Shown here one piece after another: positions 38,742 to 39,159 of a stretch of DNA of 64,000 nt (the stretch's first letter is position 1; every line of letters begins with the position of its first letter). The notes beneath the pieces are model-generated. The model was not told where the DNA came from. It saw nothing but the letters and a program-made list of their open reading frames with translations, and did no database searches. Origin of the DNA: Gemmobacter fulvus (lineage in GTDB: Bacteria > Pseudomonadota > Alphaproteobacteria > Rhodobacterales > Rhodobacteraceae). Both the position numbers and the translations under genes were made by a program. The stretch is from assembly GCF_018798885.1 (NCBI RefSeq), contig NZ_CP076361.1, forward strand, positions 2,881,501 through 2,945,500. Reading direction: 5' to 3'.

Positions 38742-38765
38742 CGCATGAGGGTGGCAGGCAGGAGA

Positions 38766-39063
38766 TGGTGTCCGCGGCGGGATTCGAACCCACGGCCCCA
38801 GGATTCATACCACTTCGGCTTTCGCCGCCGCCAACAGGCGTTCGTGGTCTGGACTGTCCCTTCACCCTAGGTTCGCAAACCCTTAGGCGCTGCCCGTCCA
38901 GTCTCTACACCTTCCCGAAAGATCGGGCTTGGCTCGGGATTGGCATGGCGCAAACCGCGCCGCAGCTTTCCCCGACTTTGAGCAGATCCGTTGCGCCGTT
39001 TCCCTGCGCAACGCCCAATTTGATCTAGGAATCCTGTGCTCTATCCAGCTGAGCTACGCAGAC
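38766..39063 (-). tRNA. tRNA-Arg (CCT), interrupted by a group I intron
   Basis: The two exons are 39063-39027 (37 nt) and 38805-38766 (40 nt), giving a 77-nt tRNA with encoded CCA. GTCTGCG pairs with CGCGGAC in the acceptor; the D arm is GCTC/GAGC; the T arm is GTGGG/CCCGC with TTCGAAT. Joining the exons gives the anticodon arm CAGGATTCCTAATCCTG with anticodon CCT (39029-39027). The intron interrupts between U36 and A37. Standard tRNA searches may miss it. It lies on the same strand as bfr and is convergent with the LysE gene. Confidence 0.93.
38806..39026 (-). ncRNA. Group I self-splicing intron, tRNA type (IC3-like), 221 nt
   Basis: The 5' exon ends in U and the intron ends in G (38806), as group I splicing needs. 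The internal guide GGG (39016-39014) can pair with the anticodon CCU as P1, and the AUU just before it with AAU of the 3' exon as P10. P2 is CGTTGCGC (39013-39006) with GCGCAACG (38996-38989), with a GGGAAAC loop. GAGCCAAGC (38935-38927), GGTGTAGAGACT (38911-38900), CCTAAGG (38887-38881) and GTGAAGG..AGTCC match the catalytic core of the Azoarcus tRNA-Ile intron as I recall it; GACTG/CAGTC form P7. No endonuclease frame exists. Confidence 0.93.
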
Positions 39064-39159
39064 ATCATCTCCTGCGCGCTTTGTAGCGGGGTTCTGGCGC
39101 TTGGGCAATAACCTAGCGCCGGGCTTTGGGCCGGGGCAGGCACCCCCCCATGCCGGGCC

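Follow-up and report, generated by a model that had tools for sequence, protein, structure and literature searches.

The window, a 64,000-nt stretch of Gemmobacter fulvus DNA, carries on its minus strand a tRNA-Arg(CCU) gene (39063-38766) interrupted by a 221-nt group I intron. We have high confidence in the explanation as a whole: the exons join to an intact tRNA, the P3-P8 core covaries among relatives, splicing is predicted by homology, and gene and intron were probably acquired as a unit. Exon 1 (39027..39063, minus strand) is 37 nt in length and ends with the anticodon base U36, the intron follows at 38806..39026, and exon 2 (38766..38805) is 40 nt in length with the CCA encoded. All three features are called by ARAGORN in intron mode, and the intron is also matched by the Rfam model RF00028 (34.1 bits) and by a model of our own, R1 (137 bits; see below). 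Two tRNA halves around 221 nt had been proposed in a first-pass annotation, and its placement is exact to the base, the three parts being 39063-39027, 39026-38806 and 38805-38766. The U before the intron and the G as its last base, both listed in that annotation, are present, and the terminal U of exon 1 pairs with a G of the guide, a further group I feature. Exact joining of the exons gives the intact anticodon arm that had been claimed (CAGGA-UUCCUAA-UCCUG, 5/5 pairs) within a predicted 77-nt product. Two mechanically called ORFs that overlap the intron (322 and 173 aa) were rejected as genes.

The structural elements of the intron are likewise read on the minus strand. The P10 strand AUU and the internal guide GGG of P1 lie together at 39014..39019: the guide (39016-39014) forms three pairs with the anticodon CCU (U.G, C-G and C-G), and the AUU immediately 5' of it pairs with AAU of exon 2 to give P10. 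The P2 hairpin (38989..39013) is closed by a GAAA loop, so that P1, P10 and the P2 stem with a GNRA-type loop are all found as they had been described. The P3 strands are located at 38980..38986 (5') and 38890..38895 (3'), and those of P7, the guanosine-binding helix by homology, at 38899..38903 (5') and 38852..38856 (3').

Relatives for a core alignment were collected by BLAST in 198 genomes of the family and by searching contigs for exact copies of the core string AGGTGTAGAGACTRGAYGG, which was found in at least 120 stretches of viral contigs and at least 119 of genome contigs (80 loci of each were used). Among the matches listed, 44 diverse cores were picked for covariation analysis. Seven helices including P3-P8 are paired in 98.0% of 1269 cells in these cores, versus 78.7% after shuffling and 26–47% when slid, and double changes are seen in 233 cells, versus 65.5 for the shuffled and 22–44 for the slid versions. 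One pair of the P7 pseudoknot (112-181) switches in step, being A-U in 34/44 rows and G-C in 10/44 with none broken; its 3' partner was left free in both scan and trimming. The remaining four of the five P7 pairs show no variation in the 44 rows; invariance at the scan-string and trimming columns is selected, because AGGTGTAGAGACTRGAYGG and the trimming patterns fix those columns. The group I core of the initial reading is supported, over P3-P8, by covariation among its relatives. Folding of the single sequence was moderately better than that of its shuffles (z -2.24, with 5/200 shuffles as good) and did not recover the core.

The intron very probably removes itself from the pre-tRNA. By homology, the pre-tRNA would be transcribed from its own promoter and the intron would fold, with a guanosine held at P7 attacking after the anticodon U on the guide GGG. 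The freed exon would then attack after the terminal G of the intron, and a 77-nt tRNA predicted to read AGG would be released.

A possible promoter is located upstream at 39080..39108 (minus strand), where TTGCCC is followed by GCTACAAA; these elements resemble the alphaproteobacterial promoter consensus. A sigma-70 scan of the region including 39080..39108 found no promoter. Between the bacterioferritin gene and the tRNA is a terminator-like hairpin (39188-39169), one being found where 0.7 is expected from shuffling; such a hairpin would be consistent with the tRNA having a promoter of its own. The gene is also bracketed by complementary strands: a leader GCAGGAGAT (39067..39075, minus strand) and a trailer ATCTCCTGC (38758..38766, minus strand), the first base of which is the last of the CCA. 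An outer helix of this kind (at least 5 pairs, G-U allowed, starting at offsets of 3-4 nt upstream and 0 nt downstream) is present in 9/30 intron-bearing Arg(CCU) loci, kinship ignored, and in 2/43 of this genome's tRNAs under the same test, the offsets having been set after viewing the data and one of the 30 loci being without a trailer. It reaches 14 pairs in L347, is formed by AATGAAAAAAG/CTTTTTTCATT in L035, and is absent from several Rhizobiales loci (L213, L236 and L249). Leader and trailer are complementary with differing sequences between species (also in L033, L035, L347 and L348), as if the helix were kept.

Default ARAGORN makes a single call in the window, a tRNA-Ser, and Rfam at gathering thresholds reports only that same tRNA type; both miss the interrupted tRNA-Arg(CCU). 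With introns allowed, ARAGORN calls tRNA-Arg(cct)i(38,221) at the locus. The expectation that the gene would look missing to ordinary tRNA finders thus holds for default ARAGORN and the Rfam tRNA model but does not extend to every tRNA finder, since ARAGORN in intron mode reports it. A covariance search with the Rfam group I model, suggested in the first-pass annotation, had a similarly divided outcome: RF00028 run on 651 bases gives a significant match over the full model length (34.1 bits, E 6.1e-7), but this score is below the curated 50 bits. On the whole genome the intron is the sole RF00028 match at E ≤ 10 (E 1.0e-6); at this lax limit 8/14 control genomes give some match, two of them above the cut-off. 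R1, a covariance model built in this analysis from 44 rows, gives the intron 137.1 bits (E 1.9e-38) on the genome, a score that is partly by construction because the window sequence is one of the training rows; the next two matches have E values of 4.4 and 5.05. No further intron of this kind was found in the genome, the one RF00028 match and the one convincing R1 match both being this intron.

It had been pointed out in the first-pass annotation that a second intact tRNA-Arg(CCT) gene would make this one a dead copy. None was found in the genome in three ways: the Rfam tRNA search (48 places, of which the 45 above threshold include no Arg(CCU) by ARAGORN typing), BLAST with the spliced tRNA (which returns both halves, followed by Arg(UCU), Arg(ACG) and Trp) and BLAST with the uninterrupted Arg(CCU) gene of a relative (which matches only Arg(UCU) here). 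The Rfam/ARAGORN inventory also shows no tRNA-Tyr, ordinary tRNA-Leu(UAA) or Lys(CUU); as the first two are unseen, the tRNA search may have missed genes. One candidate tRNA-Tyr, obtained with an anticodon-arm search, was rejected, as ARAGORN does not call it a tRNA. The sole tRNA-Leu(UAA) call (L065, C1:413593-413666) is 77 nt in length and lacks a long variable arm.

Even as a single copy the gene might be dead, its intron no longer splicing and AGG being read by tRNA-Arg(UCU), which is intact in this genome and could do so by wobble. AGG is also rare (2/1367 codons in four ORFs). We consider this very improbable: the exons are identical (100%) to those of G091 and G183, both from other genera, and 98.7% identical (one change) to those of Rhodobacter sp. 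SW2; the intron core and guide are intact; and some CCU gene is present in each of the 11 genomes of the genus set. A functional, self-splicing gene is the preferred reading, and its history can be approached through its exons and its neighbours.

Within the genus set the intron-bearing gene occurs in this genome and in G588 only. The other 9/11 genomes have an intact, intron-free tRNA-Arg(CCU) belonging to two other sequence types, representatives of which share 63.6% and 70.1% identity with the window exons. Exons 97.4% identical are found in Acetobacter and Skermanella. Elsewhere in the family, three CCU genes without an intron (79.2–80.5% identical) are closer to these exons than are the genus's own, a point against transfer. 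The interrupted gene nevertheless appears to have been brought in, replacing the ordinary tRNA-Arg(CCU) copy of the relatives.

Pfam places imelysin, BFD-like and ferritin-like (bfr) genes to one side of the tRNA, and genes of the LysE type and for a di-haem oxidoreductase (DHOR) to the other. bfr was recovered in 9/11 genus genomes, this one included, so eight relatives' loci were compared; none of the eight contains a tRNA or, at E 1e-5, a match to LysE. The distance from bfr to the DHOR gene is within ~0.35 kb in five of the eight, and ~1.35 kb in L416 and L420, which resembles the 1.27 kb here, yet these two loci also have no tRNA or LysE match. In G588 (L414), the bfr stretch examined did not show the DHOR gene. 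It is quite unlikely, given that all eight loci are without a tRNA and that the exons are of a different sequence type from the other CCU genes of the genus, that the intron entered a tRNA gene already resident in the species rather than arriving with a foreign one. Introns of this lineage do change site, as their presence in several different tRNAs indicates, but at 221 nt this one is too small to hold a homing endonuclease.

The intron-bearing gene could instead be ancestral in the family, with other lineages losing it after gaining other CCU genes, and the exon type is indeed widespread in Alphaproteobacteria. We regard this as unlikely, though with a real chance of being correct: the CCU form is found in only 4/198 family genomes (this one included), plus G588 from the genus set, and the intron loci of G588, G111, G091 and G183 share with the window only the tRNA, 2–45 nt upstream and 0–9 nt downstream. 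Acquisition of gene and intron as one unit is the likeliest history, with the direction of transfer unrooted; the two would have arrived together in a genome that lacks the tRNA-Arg(CCU) types of the other genus members. More tentatively, the tRNA, its intron, the promoter and the leader/trailer helix may possibly constitute a small mobile gene that enters unrelated loci and displaces the resident gene, spreading by whole-gene replacement and not by homing.

At the level of sequence, the P1 guide tracks the host anticodon across relatives. Among the matches listed there are 181 core places; intron mode calls a tRNA around 156 of these cores, and 151 have an assigned host; the core was obtained in 148 of these assigned introns and not in three. 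Hosts among these matches are Leu(UAA), Arg(CCU), Ile2/Met-type CAU, Thr(GGU), Thr(UGU), Arg(UCU) and Lys(UUU), along with some that are ambiguous or occur once; ARAGORN reads two of the Lys(UUU) rows (L242 and L243) as Asn. The expected guide, defined as G plus the complement of the two exon bases just before the intron, is found in 134/139 distinct introns among the matches listed, although this test is mildly circular because the boundary solver weighted guide pairing slightly. By class, again among the matches listed, GGG is found in 21/22 CCU introns, GCC in 3/3 Thr(GGU), GUG in 7/7 CAU and GAG in 91/94 Leu introns. CCU, GGU and CAU show the contrast most clearly, since the Leu class is rich in other triplets (GCC in 68/94 and GUG in 65/94, among the matches listed) and the solver gave weight to pairing. 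In L048, L209 and L269 an intron of the same lineage is located in tRNA-Thr(GGU) after U36, with the guide switched to GCC. A second intron of the lineage is present in G588, a genome of the same genus, in tRNA-Arg(UCU) (L361, 386-678; 216 nt by ARAGORN), and tRNA-Arg(UCU) is also the host in L049 and L051. The host and site of the window intron recur in 16/71 assigned loci of named genomes (among the 80 matches listed), two of which, L236 and L246, are from Agrobacterium, bearing out an earlier remark that related introns exist in Agrobacterium tRNA-Arg(CCU).

R1 matches at E 0.001 were obtained in 51/387 genomes of the class, and a clear BLAST match to the intron in 20/198 family genomes, this genome counted. 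Hosts at the 20 family loci, a set that leaves out weak partial matches in G015 and G169 and a second match in G109, are Leu(UAA) (13), Arg(CCU) (4), Arg(UCU) (2) and Thr(GGU) (1). A core tree was made from 161 rows, with one long core and the loci L206 and L219, taken as duplicates of family genomes, left out. The 161 include 16 rows added to the assigned introns; 16/29 of the class loci L331-L359 were offered to it, and L353, L356 and L357 are not in the tree. Host labels require 18 changes on this tree, versus a shuffled mean of 49.6, and each of the five rows nearest the window is a CCU intron. The window falls in a smallest starred set of 37 rows (24 CCU and 13 Leu(UAA)); 12/147 inner branches are starred. 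IMG/VR contigs (L081-L160) carry tRNA genes with introns of the lineage, 49 of the 60 assigned among the matches listed being Leu(UAA); in L132 the host reads tRNA-Lys(UUU). Gordonia phage Daredevil also has a match.

Several known introns resemble the one described here. The Azoarcus tRNA-Ile(CAU) intron (205 nt, subgroup IC3) is, by description, also a small bacterial tRNA intron, in another host tRNA; the CAU-class introns of our survey align in the same core as the window intron, with guide GUG rather than GGG. Cyanobacterial and plastid tRNA-Leu(UAA) genes have a group I intron in the anticodon loop; the tRNA-Leu(UAA) introns of our survey are inserted after U34, in contrast to U36 of tRNA-Arg(CCU) in the window. 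The Agrobacterium tumefaciens tRNA-Arg(CCU) intron has the same host tRNA, site (after U36) and core string; in A. tumefaciens MEJ076 (L236), it is 223 nt in length, versus 221 here, and the exons are 84.4% identical to those of the window. The history of this family from Agrobacterium goes back to Reinhold-Hurek and Shub 1992 and Paquin, Heinfling and Shub 1999, both cited in the available part of PMC7717549. That same part describes BbgpI of Bartonella bacilliformis, a group I intron interrupting an unannotated tRNA-Arg(CCU). BbgpI is spliced in vitro and in vivo, and its host tRNA was found by tRNAscan-SE only after the intron was removed. By description, the window likewise has an intron-bearing tRNA-Arg(CCU) missed by default annotation; splicing was demonstrated for BbgpI and is predicted for the window. 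Group I introns explain missing fMet or Ile2 tRNAs in 36 genomes according to the tRNAscan-SE 2.0 paper (PMC8450103, in part), and the cyanobacterial and plastid tRNA-Leu(UAA) intron is mentioned in the available part of PMC5733544. The intron is thus a further representative of an already known family of alphaproteobacterial tRNA-Arg(CCU) introns, its kind being known from the available parts of PMC7717549 (Bartonella/Agrobacterium) and PMC8450103 (fMet/Ile2); the former, in that part, makes no mention of the host and locus of the window.

BLAST of the window gene against PLSDB led to a plasmid relative. pCTX-M3 (L422, 3951-4249) carries a tRNA-Leu(UAA) gene interrupted by a group I intron of ~220 nt, as do L423 and L424. 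The L422 gene scores 36.8 bits with RF00028 and 140.6 bits with R1; ARAGORN in intron mode places the junction elsewhere and calls tRNA-Stop, so the Leu(UAA) host is our own reading. The gene adjoins one for an AAA-family ATPase (named tunicamycin resistance protein in one record), and aac(3)-IId adjoins in the two records with both sides seen; the third record ends before it. The tRNA and intron are matched in 1,291/72,556 PLSDB records, 1272 of these at ≥99%. In a separate search, 1230 records contained a match spanning ≥80% of the 1.8-kb segment made up of the tRNA, the ATPase gene and aac(3)-IId, a threshold attainable without the tRNA; the PLSDB gene table lists no RNA genes. The plasmid core is nearest to that of Enterovirga aerilata (96% over 144 columns), then to those of other alphaproteobacteria, which suggests an alphaproteobacterial source for the plasmid stretch. 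A full-text literature search found nothing on a plasmid tRNA-Leu intron beside a resistance gene; mentions of tRNA-Leu in the available part of PMC4048246 were rejected, as they concern genomic islands and not the resistance module. Lying next to a resistance gene on plasmids, an intron of this lineage may mark where the module came from.

For G. fulvus, the predicted splicing would restore a tRNA-Arg(CCU) that default annotation misses. For its genus, this locus provides a case of one tRNA gene apparently displaced by an intron-bearing one.
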